A DNA stretch of 64,000 nt from Tenacibaculum agarivorans (lineage in GTDB: Bacteria; Bacteroidota; Bacteroidia; Flavobacteriales; Flavobacteriaceae): NCBI RefSeq assembly GCF_001936575.1, contig NZ_MSMP01000026.1, positions 1 through 64,000 of the forward strand, given 5' to 3'. The number at the start of each line of letters is the position of its first letter. Positions within the stretch are counted from its first letter, which is position 1. The notes under the pieces were generated by a model. The model had not been told where the DNA came from. It made no database searches and worked only from the letters and a program-made list of their open reading frames with translations. This document shows, piece by piece, positions 2,340 to 11,872 of this stretch. The translations under genes and the position numbers were made by a program.

Positions 2340-2753
2340 ATGCAAAAAAAATTAACAATATTGTTAATTGAAGATGACCAAATTGAAGTAATGAAATTCA
2401 ATAGGATTTTATCTAAAATAAATTCTCAGCACAAAATTATTGAGGCAAATAATGGAGAAGAAGCTTTAAAAATACTATCTGACAAAGATAACCTCCCCAA
2501 CCTTATTCTTCTCGATTTAAATATGCCTAAAATAAACGGTATTGAGTTCCTTAAAATTTTAAAAAACGATAGCGTATTAAAATATTTACCAACAGTAATT
2601 CTAACCACTTCCACAAATCAAAAAGATATGTTGGAGTGTTACAAGATTGGAATTGCGGGGTATATGGTAAAACCATTAAAGTACGAAGACTATCAAAATA
2701 AACTAATTAAGGTGTTATCATACTGGAGTGCGAATGAATTAATTACGGTTTAA
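2340..2753 (+). CDS. single-domain response regulator (Rcp1/CheY-like)
   Basis: A stand-alone receiver domain of 137 residues with no output domain. The acidic pair is in LLIEDDQ (residues 8-14), the phospho-accepting Asp is D59 in LILLDLNMP, the switch Thr lies in ILTTS and the conserved Lys is K111 in VKPL. The sequence style resembles the Rcp1 family that partners phytochrome-like or multi-PAS kinases. It lies 117 nt before a PAS histidine kinase on the same strand. With a separate Hpt protein and a LytTR regulator downstream, it could be the intermediate receiver of a phosphorelay. That order is inference. The minus-strand frame overlapping it is a shadow. Confidence 0.92.
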   Translation: MQKKLTILLIEDDQIEVMKFNRILSKINSQHKIIEANNGEEALKILSDKDNLPNLILLDLNMPKINGIEFLKILKNDSVLKYLPTVILTTSTNQKDMLECYKIGIAGYMVKPLKYEDYQNKLIKVLSYWSANELITV

Positions 2754-2870
2754 ATCTCTGTCTTATTTCTTTAATTAAGAAGATTATCATCTAATTTTCA
2801 ATTTAAACTCGTAAATTGTAGTTGCCTAATACTAAAAACATAGTATTTAAATAATATCAAACTTATATTT

Positions 2871-5234
2871 ATGAGTGATATTCTTATTGAAGACTTAAAA
2901 AAAGCTTTAGAACAAGAGCGAGCAGCTCGAATAGCAGCAGAGGAAAAACTAAATAAGTATATAGAAAACTCTGAGGGTAGGGTTAATGATTTAACAGAAC
3001 TGAATAAAAGTCTTCAAGAAGATTTAACTCAAAAAGAATCTGAATTTCGAGGAATATTTGAAAATTTAAATGATGCTTATGTACTCATAGATTTAAAAGG
3101 GAATGTGTTAAAAATGAACGACGTGGCTACGGTTATGTTTGAGCATGATTACACAAAATCACCTTTGAATTTAATGAAGTTAGTCCATCCAAATGACCAT
3201 AAATATACCATAGAGGCATTTAAAAATTTACTTAAAGAAGGTTTTTACACAAAATATCGATCTAGAATAATTACTAAAAATAATAATGCAAAATTATTAG
3301 AAGTAAATTGTAGCCTAATTAAAGATAAAGATGGGCAAATAATCGGAGCACAAGGAATAGCTAGAGATGTTACTGAGGAAGTTTCCTTACAAAGATTATT
3401 GAAAGAGCAAAAACATCAATTAGATATTATTTTAGATAACTCACCTATAGGTATTGTATTATCTGAAGGAGCTGATGATAATTTTATATTTGCGAACAAG
3501 TCACTTACTAATATGCTGGGATATACTTTTGAAGAAATGAAAACTTTAAAAGTTAGTCAATTAACCCATCCTGATGATAGACTCCGATCAAAAACTTTAA
3601 GAGACAAACTTGAAAAAGGAGAAATTAAACGTTTTAGCATAGAAAAAAGGTATATTAAAAAAAATGGTGATATTCTTTGGGCTAAAACAATTGTTAATTC
3701 AGTCGATAATTCTGATAAAAAAGTAAAATTCAGAGTAGCAACGGTTGAGGATATAACAGAGAATAAATTAGCTCAACAACGATTGTTAGAAATTGAAAAT
3801 AGATTAACTTCTTTAATTGCGAACTTAGATAGTGCGGTAATCTTAGAAGATGAAAGTAGAGAAGTAGTAATTTCTAATAAAAAATTCTGTGAGATATTTT
3901 CATTAACCGGATTTCCTGAAGAGTTGAAAGGGAAGTTTTATCCTGAAATAGTAGATAATACAAAAGCAATTTTTGAAAAACCTGAATATTATATTAATAG
4001 AATTAATAAGCTCATTAAAGATAAAAAAATGGTATTGGGAGATGAGCTAAGATTAGTTGATGGAAGAATTTTAGAACGAGATTATATCCCTATTTCTAAA
4101 GATAAAGAATATAAAGGTCATTTGTGGACTTATAGAGATGTAACACTATCAAGAAATTATAGGAAAAGTCTAGAAACACATAAAAAAAGATATAGTAACA
4201 TTATTGCAAATCTTAAGTTAGGTTTAGTAGAGCTCGATAATGAAAATAGAATCCTTTCTGCGAATAAGAGTTTTATGAAAATGACAGGGTTTGAAGAAGA
4301 TGAAATCTTAACACAAGATATAAGAGAGCTCTTTACTAAGGATATGATTAAAAACCTTATTCAGCAACGTAGTGTTAGTCGAAAAGAAGGAAGAACAGGT
4401 TCTTATGAGTTTAAATTTATTAATAAAATTAATCAAGAGAAAGTTTTATTAGTAAGCGCAGCACCAAACTTTAATATTAGTGGAGAAATTATAGGGTCTA
4501 TAGGTATAATACTAGACATTACTCATATTAAAAAATTAGAATCACAAAAAGAAGAATTACTAAAACAATTAGAACAAAGAAATATAGAGCTAGAAGAATA
4601 TGCCCATGTGGTTTCTCATGATTTAAAATCACCTTTACGTAGTATTTCAGCATTAACAAGTTGGTTAAAAGAAGACTATGGAAGATTTCTAGGGAATGGA
4701 GGAATACAAAATGTAGATATGATACAAGAAGTGGTGGAAAAGATGGAGCGACTTATCAATGATATTTTGAATTACTCTAGTATTAATAATGATGAGTCTA
4801 CATATGAAGATGTAAATACGTTTAAAATTGTTAATGATATTAGTAAGTTAATATATGTGCCTAAGCATATAGAAATAAAGATTAGCGAAAAATTACCAAT
4901 AGTAAGAGCCAATAAAGTTAGAATTCAACAGCTTTTTCAAAATTTAATGAGTAATGCTGTAAATTATATTGATAAGGAAAAAGGTTTAATTTCAATAGAT
5001 GTAAAAGAAAAAAAGAAAAGCTATATATTTAGTGTTCAAGATAACGGTATTGGAATAAAAAAAGAATATTATTCAAAAATATTTGAAGTATTTCAATCGT
5101 TAGGAAACCATAAAAAATCTACTGGAATTGGATTATCAATAGTAAAAAAAATAGTAGACGTGTATAACGGTAAAATCTGGTTAGAAAGTCAAGAGGGGGT
5201 AGGAACAACATTTTTTATTCAATTAAACAAATAA
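2871..5234 (+). CDS. multi-PAS sensor histidine kinase
   Basis: The 787-residue protein has an N-terminal coiled coil (about 5-60) and then four PAS-type sensor modules at roughly 55-170, 183-300, 310-425 and 435-550. Two of them end in the PAC-like RDVTE/EDITE motifs. A second coiled coil leads into a HisKA domain with the phospho-acceptor H583 in VSHDLKSPLRS. The HATPase_c domain contains an N-box (NLMSNAVNY), a G1 box (DNGIGI, near 724) and a G2 box (STGIGLSI). There is no transmembrane segment, so this is a cytoplasmic sensor, and the ligand cannot be read from the sequence. There is no fused receiver, which fits phosphotransfer through the separate receiver and Hpt proteins encoded next to it. 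The Hpt gene starts 6 nt after its stop. Confidence 0.95.
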   Translation: MSDILIEDLKKALEQERAARIAAEEKLNKYIENSEGRVNDLTELNKSLQEDLTQKESEFRGIFENLNDAYVLIDLKGNVLKMNDVATVMFEHDYTKSPLNLMKLVHPNDHKYTIEAFKNLLKEGFYTKYRSRIITKNNNAKLLEVNCSLIKDKDGQIIGAQGIARDVTEEVSLQRLLKEQKHQLDIILDNSPIGIVLSEGADDNFIFANKSLTNMLGYTFEEMKTLKVSQLTHPDDRLRSKTLRDKLEKGEIKRFSIEKRYIKKNGDILWAKTIVNSVDNSDKKVKFRVATVEDITENKLAQQRLLEIENRLTSLIANLDSAVILEDESREVVISNKKFCEIFSLTGFPEELKGKFYPEIVDNTKAIFEKPEYYINRINKLIKDKKMVLGDELRLVDGRILERDYIPISKDKEYKGHLWTYRDVTLSRNYRKSLETHKKRYSNIIANLKLGLVELDNENRILSANKSFMKMTGFEEDEILTQDIRELFTKDMIKNLIQQRSVSRKEGRTGSYEFKFINKINQEKVLLVSAAPNFNISGEIIGSIGIILDITHIKKLESQKEELLKQLEQRNIELEEYAHVVSHDLKSPLRSISALTSWLKEDYGRFLGNGGIQNVDMIQEVVEKMERLINDILNYSSINNDESTYEDVNTFKIVNDISKLIYVPKHIEIKISEKLPIVRANKVRIQQLFQNLMSNAVNYIDKEKGLISIDVKEKKKSYIFSVQDNGIGIKKEYYSKIFEVFQSLGNHKKSTGIGLSIVKKIVDVYNGKIWLESQEGVGTTFFIQLNK

Positions 5235-5240
5235 GTACTC

Positions 5241-5564
5241 ATGAACTTAGAACAGCCAAATCTTAATTATATTAAAGAATTATCTGGAGGAGATGTAGAT
5301 TTTGAACAAAAGATGCTCTCTATATTAAAGAATGAATTGCCAACTGAAATAGAAGTCTATGAAAAAAACATTGAAAATCAAGATTTTAAAAAGGTTGCTG
5401 AAATAGTGCATAAAATTAAACATAAAATTAGTATTTTAGGCTTACCAAAATCTCATGAATTTGCGGTGCAATTCGAAAATGAATTACGCAATGAGAATAT
5501 GCAAAAGCATGAAAGTTTTCTAAAATTACTAAAATTAATGTCTAACTTTTTAGACAAGGTATAA
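5241..5564 (+). CDS. histidine phosphotransfer (Hpt) protein
   Basis: A small 107-residue all-helical protein with the Hpt signature around IVHKIKHKISILG; His57 is the likely phosphorylated residue. It starts 6 nt after the kinase stop and ends 11 nt before the LytTR regulator, so the three genes are almost certainly co-transcribed. An independent Hpt gene between a kinase and a response regulator suggests a multistep phosphorelay. The likely route is kinase, then the upstream single-domain receiver, then Hpt, then the LytTR regulator. The direction is inferred from gene content only. Confidence 0.85.
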   Translation: MNLEQPNLNYIKELSGGDVDFEQKMLSILKNELPTEIEVYEKNIENQDFKKVAEIVHKIKHKISILGLPKSHEFAVQFENELRNENMQKHESFLKLLKLMSNFLDKV

Positions 5565-5575
5565 AATTTCAATAT

Positions 5576-6289
5576 ATGAATTGTTTAATAATTGATGATG
5601 AATCTGCTGCAAGAGCAATTGTAGAACAACTTTGTAAAAACGAAGGATCGTTACAGGTAATAGAGCAGTTTTCAAATGCAATACAAGCTATAAAGTATTT
5701 AAATCAAAATGAAATAGATTTAATTTTCTTAGACATTCATATGCCAGATTTTACTGGGTTTGATTTAATTCAAACATTGAAAAATCCTCCAAGGATTATT
5801 TTAACAACTTCTGATGAAAAATTTGCCATAGACGCTTTTGAGTACGATTGTATCGTAGATTATTTAGTAAAGCCAATTACATTACCTAGATTTATAAAAG
5901 CAGTAGAAAAGGCAAAAAAGTTTAAGTTTAATACCGCTCAAAATGCAAGCCCATCCAATGGGGAAGCAAAAGAAGAAGACAAACAACTCTATATAAATAT
6001 AGACCGTAGGTTAATTAAAATAGAAATTCCTAGTATAAATGTGGTTGAAGCAAAAGGAGATTATATTTTAATAAAAACTCAAGATAAAAACTATACAGTA
6101 CATTCTACACTAAAGAAAATAGAAGAGAAATTACCTAACGACTTATTTTTGAAAGTTCATCGTTCTTATATTATCAATCTAAAGAGAATTGTTGATATAG
6201 AAGACAACAGTGTACTCATCGAAAAAGATGTAATACCTGTAAGTAGATCTAATAGATCTGAGTTAATGAAACGATTAAACTTATTATAA
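5576..6289 (+). CDS. LytTR-family response regulator
   Basis: A 237-residue response regulator with a receiver domain (1-120; acidic pair in IIDDES, phospho-acceptor D53 in FLDIHMPDFTGF, conserved Lys in LVKPI) and a C-terminal LytTR DNA-binding domain (about 135-237). The LytTR domain shows the characteristic VVEAKGDYILI and VHRSYIINL motifs. LytTR proteins bind pairs of short direct repeats about 21-22 bp apart. Directly downstream, four sRNA promoters each carry such a pair at the same distance from the -7 box, so this protein is the best candidate activator of those genes. That link is inference from spacing and proximity. No clear intrinsic terminator follows the gene. Confidence 0.95.
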   Translation: MNCLIIDDESAARAIVEQLCKNEGSLQVIEQFSNAIQAIKYLNQNEIDLIFLDIHMPDFTGFDLIQTLKNPPRIILTTSDEKFAIDAFEYDCIVDYLVKPITLPRFIKAVEKAKKFKFNTAQNASPSNGEAKEEDKQLYINIDRRLIKIEIPSINVVEAKGDYILIKTQDKNYTVHSTLKKIEEKLPNDLFLKVHRSYIINLKRIVDIEDNSVLIEKDVIPVSRSNRSELMKRLNLL

Positions 6290-6332: not shown

Positions 6333-6420
6333 TCGTCGATTTATATCTTTTAATTATCTATAATTAAATTTATCTCCATCGAAAACTAGACTTTTACTAT
6401 GTAATTGCACTATATATTTG
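6333..6420 (+). promoter_or_regulatory. sRNA copy 1 promoter with 21-nt-spaced paired site
   Basis: TCGA at 6336-6339 and TCTA at 6357-6360 are exactly 21 nt apart. The -7 box TATATTTG (6413-6420) matches the Bacteroidota consensus TAnnTTTG and starts 56 nt after the TCTA start. The -33 TTG element is weak, which is usual for activator-dependent promoters. The same arrangement recurs before the other three copies. Confidence 0.75.
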
Positions 6421-6426
6421 TAGTGT

Positions 6427-6582
6427 AATTAAGTTGGTAATAGTGTAAATAAAAATATAAACACCCTTTTAAAGTTTGTTTTTCATTATTTGAATTTTTA
6501 CGCTTACACTCGTAAGTGTAGTTTTTAGATTTATTTGGTTGATTAATTAAACCCTTCCGCCCGGAAGGGTTTATTCTTTTTT
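6427..6582 (+). ncRNA. tandem small RNA, copy 1
   Basis: A predicted transcript of about 155 nt, starting roughly 7 nt after the TATATTTG box and ending at an intrinsic terminator. No long ORF lies inside. A hairpin TACACT/AGTGTA (6505-6510/6515-6520, loop CGTA) sits directly before the conserved 3' element (6521-6545, core AGATTTATTTGGTTGATT). A terminator stem AAACCCTTCC/GGAAGGGTTT (6549-6558/6563-6572) and a T-rich tail follow. The hairpin and the terminator stem differ in sequence from the other copies while keeping base pairing, which argues for a structured RNA. No known family was recognised. An antisense or protein-titrating role is possible. Confidence 0.75.
6549..6582 (+). terminator. 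intrinsic terminator of sRNA copy 1
   Basis: A 10-bp perfect stem at 6549-6558 and 6563-6572 with loop GCCC, followed by a T-rich tract. Confidence 0.85.
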
Positions 6583-6634
6583 AATGTTCTTATTATTAGG
6601 GTTGTAGGTCGTTTTTGAGTTCGGGTAAAACACT

Positions 6635-6721
6635 TCGTCGACATAATTAAACCACTTATCTACAATAAAATGTTACAAGTCTAATAATTTAATGTAGATA
6701 GCCCTAAACATAATATCTTTG
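6635..6721 (+). promoter_or_regulatory. sRNA copy 2 promoter with 21-nt-spaced paired site
   Basis: TCGA at 6638-6641, TCTA at 6659-6662 (21 nt apart) and the -7 box TATCTTTG at 6714-6721, which starts 55 nt after the TCTA start. The geometry matches the other three copies although the intervening sequence differs. Confidence 0.75.
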
Positions 6722-6727
6722 AAGTGT

Positions 6728-6885
6728 AATTAAGATATAAATTATCTGATATACATAAAAGTTTTGTTTTTTTCATTACATGAAAAAATTTCACACTTCA
6801 TATATAAAATGAAGTTTTTAGATTTATTTGGTTGATTAGAAAACCTTTTGCAACTCTCAACTGCAAAAGGTTTTTCGCTTTTTAT
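6728..6885 (+). ncRNA. tandem small RNA, copy 2
   Basis: A predicted transcript of about 155 nt. Its 5' part resembles copy 3 (shared stretch TAAGATATAAATTAT). The hairpin ACTTCAT/ATGAAGT (6795-6801/6809-6815) abuts the conserved element (6814-6838, core AGATTTATTTGGTTGATT). The terminator stem AAACCTTTTGCA/TGCAAAAGGTTT (6841-6852/6862-6873) is followed by T-rich sequence. No coding frame is evident. Compared with copy 1, both hairpins have different bases but remain fully paired. Confidence 0.75.
6841..6885 (+). terminator. intrinsic terminator of sRNA copy 2
   Basis: A 12-bp perfect stem at 6841-6852/6862-6873, followed by TTTTTCGCTTTTT. Confidence 0.85.
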
Positions 6886-7118
6886 AACTTATTGTTTTTT
6901 TATTTTTTTGCAAATAATATATCTTTAACAATAAGCGATACTATAACTCAAACACAATTTTTAGAATTGGCTTTTTATACCTAAAAGCCATTTTAAAGCT
7001 CTTTATATATGACCATAAAGTACTATTAGATATTTTTCCAAAGAAGGTTTTTCATTAGTAATGATTTTATTGCTTGTAATAAAGTTGATTCTTTTTAAAA
7101 TTTCACATAAAAAAATCG
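6886..7118. other. spacer between sRNA copies 2 and 3
   Basis: AT-rich spacer with no convincing ORF, hairpin or promoter apart from the copy 3 control site that follows. Its length suggests that each sRNA is an independent unit and not part of one transcript. Confidence 0.4.
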
Positions 7119-7206
7119 TTTATCGAAAGTTAATGGTCATTTATCTAAAGTTAGATGTAGTATAGCTAATTAATATATTTTAAGATGGTTAAACCTTGTA
7201 TCTTTG
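7119..7206 (+). promoter_or_regulatory. sRNA copy 3 promoter with clear direct repeat (LytTR-like)
   Basis: Here the paired site is an obvious direct repeat: TTTATCGAAAGTTA (7119-7132) and TTTATCTAAAGTTA (7140-7153), one mismatch apart, period 21 nt. The embedded AAAGTTAAT fits the published LytTR-type half-site pattern with a central GTT, and the second half-site is close to it. The -7 box TATCTTTG is at 7199-7206, again 55 nt after the TCTA start. Confidence 0.8.
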
Positions 7207-7212
7207 AAATGT

Positions 7213-7372
7213 AAATAAGATATAAATTATATCTGATACACATAAAAGTTTTGTTTTTCATTTTATGAATTTTCACTTCACATTTATTCATAAATGAAGG
7301 TTTTTTAGATTTATTTGGTTGATTAAGAGAGCCTTTTGCAAACCCCAATTGCAAAAGGTTTTCGCTTTTTAT
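7213..7372 (+). ncRNA. tandem small RNA, copy 3
   Basis: A predicted transcript of about 160 nt. The 5' half resembles copy 2. A bulged hairpin (CTTC/GAAG plus ATTTA/TAAAT, 7276-7299) precedes the conserved element (7300-7325, core AGATTTATTTGGTTGATT). The terminator stem CCTTTTGCAA/TTGCAAAAGG is at 7332-7341/7349-7358 with a T-rich tail. A 78-codon minus-strand frame overlaps this unit, but it covers the terminator and has no homologue-like features, so it is treated as spurious. Confidence 0.75.
7332..7372 (+). terminator. intrinsic terminator of sRNA copy 3
   Basis: A 10-bp perfect stem with loop ACCCCAA, followed by TTTTCGCTTTTT. Confidence 0.85.
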
Positions 7373-7647
7373 AAAGTTATATTTCGAATGATAGTTTTCC
7401 ATTTATCGGATCATTCTCAATTGTTTCTTTTATTCAATTTGTATACACCTGAAAAATTTAGACCGTATCAATTATATTAAAAGCTAGAGGTTGATGAGAA
7501 AATAATGAGTAAAGCATTTATTTAGCAAGGAAAAACTTCTCAAATTTAATATCGTAAATCTAATATTTTTGATTCAGATTATGGCTATTTTTATAGGATT
7601 AGATGTGATCTTTTTTAATTTATCCACAACTTTTGTGAATGATCCCA
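7373..7647. other. spacer between sRNA copies 3 and 4
   Basis: AT-rich sequence with no supportable gene. A single TTATCCACA at 7620-7628 matches a DnaA box, but it stands alone and is probably chance. Confidence 0.4.
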
Positions 7648-7735
7648 TTTATCGATTGCTTTTGACATTTAATCTATACTAAGTACTTGAGGTATCGATT
7701 TTTAAGTTGAAGAGTGAATAGATGTCTTACCTTTG
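7648..7735 (+). promoter_or_regulatory. sRNA copy 4 promoter with 21-nt-spaced paired site
   Basis: TCGA at 7652-7655 and TCTA at 7673-7676 (21 nt apart) lie upstream of the -7 box TACCTTTG (7728-7735), which starts 55 nt after the TCTA start. This copy also has a TTG at 7707-7709, 18 nt before the -7 box, so it has the best -33 element of the four. Confidence 0.75.
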
Positions 7736-7741
7736 AAGTGT

Positions 7742-7900
7742 AAATGAATTTTAGAGTTTATTAGATAGAAGTACTCTGAAATTGTTTCAACTTCAATAGT
7801 TGAACACCCCGATTAAGACATAGAAGTTTTTTAGATTTATTTGGTTGATTAATATAAATCCTTTCTCGATCCCCAATCAGTGAAAGGATTTTTCTTTTTT
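7742..7900 (+). ncRNA. tandem small RNA, copy 4
   Basis: A predicted transcript of about 159 nt and the most divergent copy. A 7-bp hairpin TTCAACT/AGTTGAA (7786-7792/7798-7804) lies about 20 nt before the conserved element (7826-7851, core AGATTTATTTGGTTGATT). The terminator stem AATCCTTTC/GAAAGGATT (7857-7865/7882-7890) ends in a T-rich tract. Body sequence similarity to the other copies is low outside the promoter, the 3' element and the terminator architecture, so the copies may have different targets. Confidence 0.72.
7857..7900 (+). terminator. intrinsic terminator of sRNA copy 4
   Basis: A 9-bp perfect stem with a 16-nt loop that contains a small GAT/ATC inner stem, then TTTTTCTTTTTT. 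Confidence 0.8.
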
Positions 7901-10732: not shown

Positions 10733-11872
10733 ATGAAAATAGTTGTTTTTGATCAAAATAAATTGATCTTATTATCACTTAAAAAAAAGCTAATTGAAAT
10801 AGGATATGATGTTCAAATTGCTAGAACAAGTAACCAAGCAATCAAATTAATCGAAGAAAATGAACCAGACCTTGTAAGCATAGATGTGAATGCAAGTGAT
10901 TATACAGGTGTGGATGTTTTGAAATATATTAAAGAATCTTCTTATAAAACAAAAGTTATTGTGATATCTGAAGATACTGAAGACACAGACATAGCAGATT
11001 TATTTGCTTATGGGGTAGATGATTTTATTAAAAAGCCAGTAACACTGAGTGAAATAGTACTGCGAATTAATAAAATTGTCGGTATGTGTCCTGTTCCAGA
11101 AAAGTCAATTGTAGATGATACAGTTAGCTTAGTAAGAGAAAAGTGTGTTGGAGTCGTTATACCTTGTTATAATGAAGAAAATAGACTTTTAGAAGCGGAA
11201 TTTAAGAGCTTTGTGAAAACTAATATAGGATATCACTTATGCTTTGTAAACGACGGTAGCTCTGATAATACACTCAAAGAATTAGAAGAAATTAGAAGAG
11301 GTAAAGAAGACTACATTAGCATTCTCAATTGTAAAGAGAATGGAGGAAAAGCTGAAGCTGTTAGATTAGGAATGCTTCATTTAGCCAAAAAAACAGATCT
11401 AAATTTTGATTACATTGGTTTTTTAGATGCTGATTTATCCACAGATTTTGATGATTTCGATGATCTATTAAGAACTATAAGTGCATCTGATTATAAGGTG
11501 GTCAGTGGTTCTAGAATTGAAAGGATGGGAGCTAATATTACTAAACAATCTACAAGGAAAATTATTAGTTCTGTAATTAATTTTGCGATTCAAAAAATCC
11601 TAGGAATGAAGTTTAGAGACACTCAATGTGGAGCAAAAATTTTGGATAGAGAACTGGTACCTTTCTTATTTGAAAAGAAATTTATTACAAGATGGCTTTT
11701 TGATGTCGAAATGTTTTTAAGGTTGAAAAAGAAGTATGGAGATACAACGAAAAGTATAATTTACGAACAACCCTTAAAAAGGTGGATTCATATGGATGGC
11801 TCAAGTTTATCCATGAAAGACTCTCTAGATATTGTATTTCAATTAACAAGAATAGCTAGTCATTACAAATAA
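10733..11872 (+). CDS. response-regulator receiver fused to a GT2 glycosyltransferase
   Basis: A 379-residue fusion. Residues 1-118 form a receiver domain: phospho-acceptor D51 in LVSIDVNASDYTGV, Ser in VIVISED, Lys in IKKPV. Only one of the usual two N-terminal acidic residues is kept (VVFDQN). Residues 135-379 are a GT-A fold family 2 glycosyltransferase of the dolichyl-phosphate mannosyltransferase type, with VVIPCYNEENR, VNDGSSDNT, the GFLDADLSTD metal-binding segment and SGSRI. No transmembrane segment follows, so it probably acts at the inner membrane face, transferring a sugar to a polyprenyl phosphate. A receiver attached directly to a glycosyltransferase suggests phosphorylation-controlled glycan synthesis. 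That is inference. Confidence 0.9.
   Translation: MKIVVFDQNKLILLSLKKKLIEIGYDVQIARTSNQAIKLIEENEPDLVSIDVNASDYTGVDVLKYIKESSYKTKVIVISEDTEDTDIADLFAYGVDDFIKKPVTLSEIVLRINKIVGMCPVPEKSIVDDTVSLVREKCVGVVIPCYNEENRLLEAEFKSFVKTNIGYHLCFVNDGSSDNTLKELEEIRRGKEDYISILNCKENGGKAEAVRLGMLHLAKKTDLNFDYIGFLDADLSTDFDDFDDLLRTISASDYKVVSGSRIERMGANITKQSTRKIISSVINFAIQKILGMKFRDTQCGAKILDRELVPFLFEKKFITRWLFDVEMFLRLKKKYGDTTKSIIYEQPLKRWIHMDGSSLSMKDSLDIVFQLTRIASHYK

Follow-up and report, generated by a model that had tools for sequence, protein, structure and literature searches.

Regulatory circuits that join a phosphorelay to small RNAs (sRNAs) are best known from Vibrio, where the LuxU-LuxO-Qrr pathway links a kinase, an HPt protein and a response regulator to several sibling sRNAs, and where the Qrr promoters are of the sigma-54 type and are activated by LuxO. 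In the agr system of Firmicutes, a LytTR regulator acts on direct repeats upstream of a single regulatory RNA, RNAIII, and the SilA/BlpR peptide loci encode GG-leader peptides. According to excerpts of PMC2766830, the streptococcal SilA and BlpR are LytTR regulators, and LytTR domains bind 9-bp direct repeats with a 12-bp spacer. In Bacteroidota, excerpts of PMC11697453, which also name Qrr as a sibling sRNA family, describe FopS of Bacteroides thetaiotaomicron, in which a single-stranded 5' seed stretch is followed by a terminator and which binds RbpB and represses SusC-like transporters. Among flavobacteria, the available parts of PMC5395568 report candidate F. columnare sRNAs without Rfam matches, and those of PMC9723704 describe the sRNAs Rfp1-89 of Flavobacterium psychrophilum.

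Here we analyse a 64,000-nt stretch of the Tenacibaculum agarivorans genome (5.6 Mb), hereafter the window, in which a receiver/PAS-kinase/HPt/LytTR operon (2340-6289) is followed directly by four sRNA units (6336-7900), all on the plus strand. Open reading frames and Pfam domains define the four genes of the operon: first a single-domain receiver protein of 137 aa (2340-2753; Response_reg), then a PAS-repeat histidine kinase of 787 aa (2871-5234; PAS, HisKA, HATPase_c), an HPt phosphotransfer protein of 107 aa (5241-5564; Hpt) and a receiver-LytTR response regulator of 237 aa (5576-6289; Response_reg and LytTR). From its domains and its co-occurrence with the sRNAs (see below), this last protein is the presumed activator of the array. 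Further along the window, a receiver domain is fused to a family-2 glycosyltransferase (10733-11872; Pfam), whose neighbours are a flippase-like gene and a family-1 glycosyltransferase.

The locus resembles LuxU-LuxO-Qrr in its kinase, HPt protein, response regulator and several sibling sRNAs (five copies in this genome), and in the mRNA pairing that we propose, with control by the relay presumed here. It differs in its LytTR regulator and TAnnTTTG promoters, in the tandem placement of the sRNAs next to their regulator and in the lack of an Rfam match; because promoter type and regulator differ, the array is not a member of the Qrr family. As in agr, direct repeats for a LytTR regulator (binding here being predicted) lie upstream of a regulatory RNA, but instead of one RNA there are 1-12 copies per genome, together with an HPt relay and three half-sites. 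The SilA/BlpR systems likewise tie LytTR regulation to small secreted peptides, a link that is proposed here; there the regulator acts directly on peptide promoters, whereas here the route would run via sRNAs. FopS is the nearest Bacteroidota case in the literature found, to judge from excerpts of its description, and shares many sibling sRNAs, sigma-A-type promoters, a conserved seed and a terminator; the same description sets it apart from our array, which carries its core 3', beside the terminator, together with a LytTR site array. Rfp1-89 are flavobacterial sRNAs with the same sigma-A -7 box, TAnnTTTG; we compare them by description, and the main text of PMC9723704, as excerpted, is without the words LytTR, paralog and multi-copy. 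Neither the window nor 11 related loci matched Rfam at gathering score, and a lax search of the array region gave chance-level matches only. Among the matches listed in open-licence PMC text, we found neither an sRNA family with the layout of the array nor a LytTR- or HPt-controlled sRNA in Flavobacteriaceae, in agreement with a preliminary description of this DNA that knew of no such family.

Each unit consists of a promoter array and a short RNA. In copy 1, half-sites start at 6336, 6357 and 6379, a -7 box occupies 6413-6420 (promoter, 6336-6420), and the predicted sRNA (6425-6585) carries its core at 6527-6544 with a terminator after it; its 5' end is placed 12 nt past the box start, a distance taken from excerpts of PMC9723704. 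Copy 2 has half-sites at 6638, 6659 and 6680, a box at 6714-6721 (promoter, 6638-6721) and an sRNA at 6726-6880 (core 6820-6837, then the terminator). In copy 3 the half-sites are at 7123, 7144 and 7165 (GCTA) and the box at 7199-7206 (promoter, 7123-7206), followed by an sRNA at 7211-7368 (core 7307-7324 and terminator), and in copy 4 they are at 7652, 7673 and 7695 with a box at 7728-7735 (promoter, 7652-7735) and an sRNA at 7740-7899 (core 7833-7850 and terminator). A fifth copy, on another contig, has the same layout with ACTA as its middle site.

The preliminary description had placed TCGA and TCTA exactly 21 nt apart in each unit, with the box 55-56 nt past the TCTA start, and all four units bear this out. 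It had recorded two sites per unit; we find three in 4/4 window copies, with starts 21 and 21-22 nt apart, so that TCGA lies 76-77 nt, TCTA 55-56 nt and a third TCGA, TCTA or GCTA 33-34 nt before the box. Three of its other observations also stand: the site of copy 3 is a near-perfect 14-nt direct repeat (13 of 14 positions match), the 18-nt core AGATTTATTTGGTTGATT is identical in all four copies, and the RNAs are free of sizeable reading frames, the longest closed ORF within the four transcripts being 10-23 aa. The pattern of two sites plus box occurs in the window in the four copies only, against an average of 0.01 in 100 Markov-1 shuffles; across the genome it occurs four times forward (the same copies) and once in reverse, and the backwards pattern once forward and twice in reverse.

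In F. psychrophilum, TAnnTTTG is the sigma-A -7 element and spans -12 to -5 (PMC9723704, in excerpt), from which the half-sites here would start near -88, -67 and -46. Their 21-nt period is that reported for LytTR direct repeats in the consulted part of PMC2766830. Three half-sites may accommodate a dimer plus one, or a larger assembly. With its own TAnnTTTG promoter and intrinsic terminator, each window unit is built as trans-acting base-pairing sRNAs are. We conclude that the window units are almost certainly genes of one small-RNA family.

A covariance model built from 16 copies of three genomes (R1) was searched against 166 Tenacibaculum genomes (E<=0.001, strict filters) and found 4-12 copies per genome in 13 of them. 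LytTR proteins at least 78% identical to that of the window occur, among the 166, in exactly these 13 genomes and in one more, G255 (next best, 74%), and in 13/13 the LytTR gene has an sRNA immediately downstream, in the same orientation. G255, by its layout, holds the same locus as T. adriaticum (L151), with three units whose promoter arrays are intact and whose core has diverged. R1 reports neither the three T. adriaticum units nor the lone unit in Tenacibaculum sp. M341 (L137), all of which are visible by eye. The M341 unit (L137 6717-6970) follows LytTR and has the exact core, with no TAnnTTTG box seen. The preliminary description had suggested regulatory RNAs in several copies that share one activator, perhaps a Bacteroidota counterpart of Qrr or RsmY/Z, to be examined by a covariance-model search for homologues and by co-occurrence with the LytTR gene; both results support it, the co-occurrence being exact at the 78% level apart from G255 and its diverged-core units. 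On this sequence evidence, the array is very probably under the control of the window's LytTR protein.

The 98 R1 matches, less one antisense match on L040 and one duplicate body, amount to 96 distinct copies, the 16 training copies included. The exact 12-nt core TTTGGTTGATTA is present in 52 of them, TTTGGTT is kept in 17 more, and 27 have neither. Since these 27 lack the TTTGGTT core, not every copy can act by pairing through it, and these 27 must do something else or nothing. Within 1 nt of the expected spacing, 65 of the 92 copies with enough upstream DNA have three half-sites, 19 have two, six have one and two have none. The last 14 nt of the core are identical in 16/16 of the first copies. 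The exact-core pattern matched four of 199 family genomes, the window's own included; matches on L011 and L014 were considered as further units and set aside, being without promoter or terminator. The core 14-mer matched 29 of 58 genus genomes, and of the plus-strand loci beyond the window, L028 and L040 appeared genuine. More copies occur at a second syntenic site in the four genomes inspected, where they lie between a cupin gene and a 131-aa gene next to pheS. This site is seen on L221, L222, L226 and L005 (5064-5304); some of its copies are without TTTGGTT and retain both the promoter array and a terminator loop of the CCCCAA type.

Candidate targets were sought through the complement of the core, TAATCAACCAAA, which has 51 matches outside sRNAs in 10 genomes, all inspected. 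The complement lies 5-45 nt upstream of a first ATG in 14/51 cases in sense versus 6/51 in antisense (Fisher p=0.08), and the sense count exceeds that of composition-matched 12-mers (221/2344, p=2e-4). A gapped, longer complement pattern gave 14 extra places, one of them before a start codon. In three genomes (G232, G285 and G345), the complement reaches a length of about 20 nt, one A being bulged out, and begins 25 nt before the ATG of a peptide of 61-62 aa that combines a GG-type leader with a cysteine-rich core, a family for which NCBIfam and Pfam gave no name. In G345 the complement also precedes the gene of a C39/VKOR/thioredoxin protein (L372, 3561-10004), whose start is the first in a row that continues with GG-type peptides, a C39 ABC transporter and a HlyD-like protein, the last two identified by eye. 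Four stretches of 14 kb were selected because they contain complement-bearing peptide or C39 genes; within them these genes rank first by duplex energy, with peptide genes at the top in three of the four.

The peptide is found in 28 of the 166 genomes, comprising 13/13 with the sRNA versus 15/153 without (Fisher p=5e-12 if genomes are independent). AATCAACC is present in 8/32 peptide starts of sRNA genomes (six genomes) versus 0/17 elsewhere, and peptide starts in sRNA genomes pair better with the core than the others do, by duplex energy (p=0.004) and by the best z of each genome (p=6e-4), whereas a reversed-core control shows the opposite trend (p=1.0); these target statistics treat related genomes as independent, and the unfiltered comparison of 32 and 17 starts replaces a name-filtered one (25 vs 6 peptide starts, p=0.002). 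In the window's genome, one peptide start pairs well (-19.8) and the other does not (-10.9), and AATCAACC is in neither. In G242, which has no model match, a score of -19.1 is reached by a peptide-like frame that breaks off after 14 aa. From these sequence comparisons, it is slightly better than an even bet that the peptide mRNAs are real targets of the core.

The sRNAs could instead pair under LytTR control with other main targets, the peptide match being incidental. Only three of the 14 complements near a start codon belong to peptide genes, pairing is poor at many peptide starts of sRNA genomes, and two other orthologous gene pairs, in two species each (L288/L306 and L356/L363), have the complement at their starts and could be such targets. 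Yet peptide genes have the longest complement and come first in three of the four chosen stretches, and we consider this reading unlikely.

The predicted structure of the RNA bears on a different role for the core. RNAalifold on 16 copies predicted only the terminator stem, with a compensatory change in 8/12 pairs; the earlier claim that pairing is kept between changing hairpins thus holds for this stem and was overstated elsewhere. Structure is modest in the 41 nt preceding the core (mean z -1.8, 60% below -1.5 in 47 segments), terminator loops are often C-rich (by eye), and the sole invariant element sits 3', just before the terminator. Predicted openness of the core (0.31-0.52, vs 0.38-0.42 for the whole RNA) does not make it especially unpaired, which weighs against a simple open-seed picture. 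The family could be LytTR-controlled with a core that binds an RNA-binding protein, the array being a sponge like RsmY/Z; the identity of the last 14 nt of the core and the many copies per genome, which would raise dosage, are also in keeping with this. A sponge would not be expected to co-occur with the peptide or to find its complement at peptide starts solely in sRNA genomes, however, and we regard this role as doubtful.

Layout, synteny, co-occurrence and complementarity, each read directly from the DNA, lead us to propose, with a probability of roughly 0.6, that a kinase-HPt-LytTR relay drives the sRNA copies, which pair at the starts of peptide mRNAs, a circuit wired like LuxU-LuxO-Qrr from other parts. 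The PAS kinase would raise phospho-LytTR by phosphorelay through HPt, and phospho-LytTR would bind the three half-sites, in phase with the helix, that precede each unit. We infer that bound LytTR activates rather than represses the sigma-A-type promoter; with one LytTR activating the promoter of every unit, transcription of the copies would rise together. The common 3' element would then pair with the ribosome-entry region of the mRNAs for GG-leader, cysteine-rich peptides and of some others. Given pairing, repression is the probable outcome, most likely by a block to peptide translation.

LytTR might instead repress the array, or be titrated by its sites as a decoy, with the RNAs of little weight. 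The third half-site, about 34 nt before the -7 box and near the expected -33 element, would allow a block, and the number of sites is high; a decoy, however, needs neither promoter nor terminator, whereas core, terminator and promoter are kept together where other parts diverge, and we hold this alternative to be quite improbable. That the units are mobile-element repeats without a regulatory role, as high copy number, tandem arrays and several matches at contig ends might suggest, is scarcely credible in view of the two syntenic sites at which they recur (one linked to LytTR, the other from cupin to pheS) and of listed ORFs around the copies that include no transposase recognisable by eye.

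The relay and its adjacent promoter extend beyond the genus. We took the best 80 of 442 named relatives, of which 71 are non-Tenacibaculum (L143-L214 among the loci). An HPt gene directly precedes LytTR in 80/80 of these best loci, and in 33 the kinase gene is a neighbour as well. Of the 71 non-Tenacibaculum loci, 38 have a TAnnTTTG box 70-100 nt past the LytTR stop, against a mean of 1.0 in equal upstream windows, one of which reaches 26 (taken for a conserved coding site). Where the box is present 3' of LytTR, CATTCGTCTACA and ATCGAA stand 21 nt apart (by eye). When the two-site plus box pattern was counted by spacing in relatives' loci, 17 intervening nt gave 12 matches (three from T. adriaticum), 13 nt gave seven, and each of the other 13 spacings gave 0-1.

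The relatives' likely promoter leads either into a gene for a secreted or other protein, or into a shorter unit that is noncoding and has its own terminator. Among seven proteins scanned, three have DUF6923 with Por_Secre_tail; the others are a CAP, a matrixin-like, a glycosyltransferase and an unnamed protein. The short units occur in Winogradskyella, Psychroserpens, Lacinutrix, Bizionia and an unplaced genome. A second model (R2), trained on 24 such units picked by eye, gave 19 matches in 17 of 299 family genomes, with which the training genomes may overlap; 7/19, including all five of at least 52 bits, lie directly 3' of the LytTR orthologue. R2 had no match in the window at E<=1, and R1 had none in 12 short-unit loci. 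A single RNA family across genera was considered and is unsupported; as neither model finds the other's RNAs, we claim a shared cassette and not a shared RNA family. Tenacibaculum and the short units have in common the promoter layout, its position and a loose GATTAAT motif (by eye). In many Flavobacteriaceae, the HPt-LytTR pair likely has a target promoter of its own directly 3', often before a secreted DUF6923 protein.

More tentatively, and at well below even odds, the locus could represent a Bacteroidota cell-to-cell circuit with the wiring of Vibrio quorum sensing and other components: 1 to 12 sibling sRNAs, driven by the kinase-HPt-LytTR relay, would control the production of secreted GG-leader peptides, themselves possibly signals or antagonists. 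The LytTR gene with its own target promoter would then be an ancestral cassette of Flavobacteriaceae, into which sRNAs were recruited before or instead of secreted-protein genes. If our reading is true, flavobacteria would have a Qrr-like post-transcriptional switch, under a LytTR regulator with an unusual three-half-site array and a predicted set of secreted-peptide targets. The HPt-LytTR pair with its own promoter would be a recognisable cassette, from which regulons could be read across the family.
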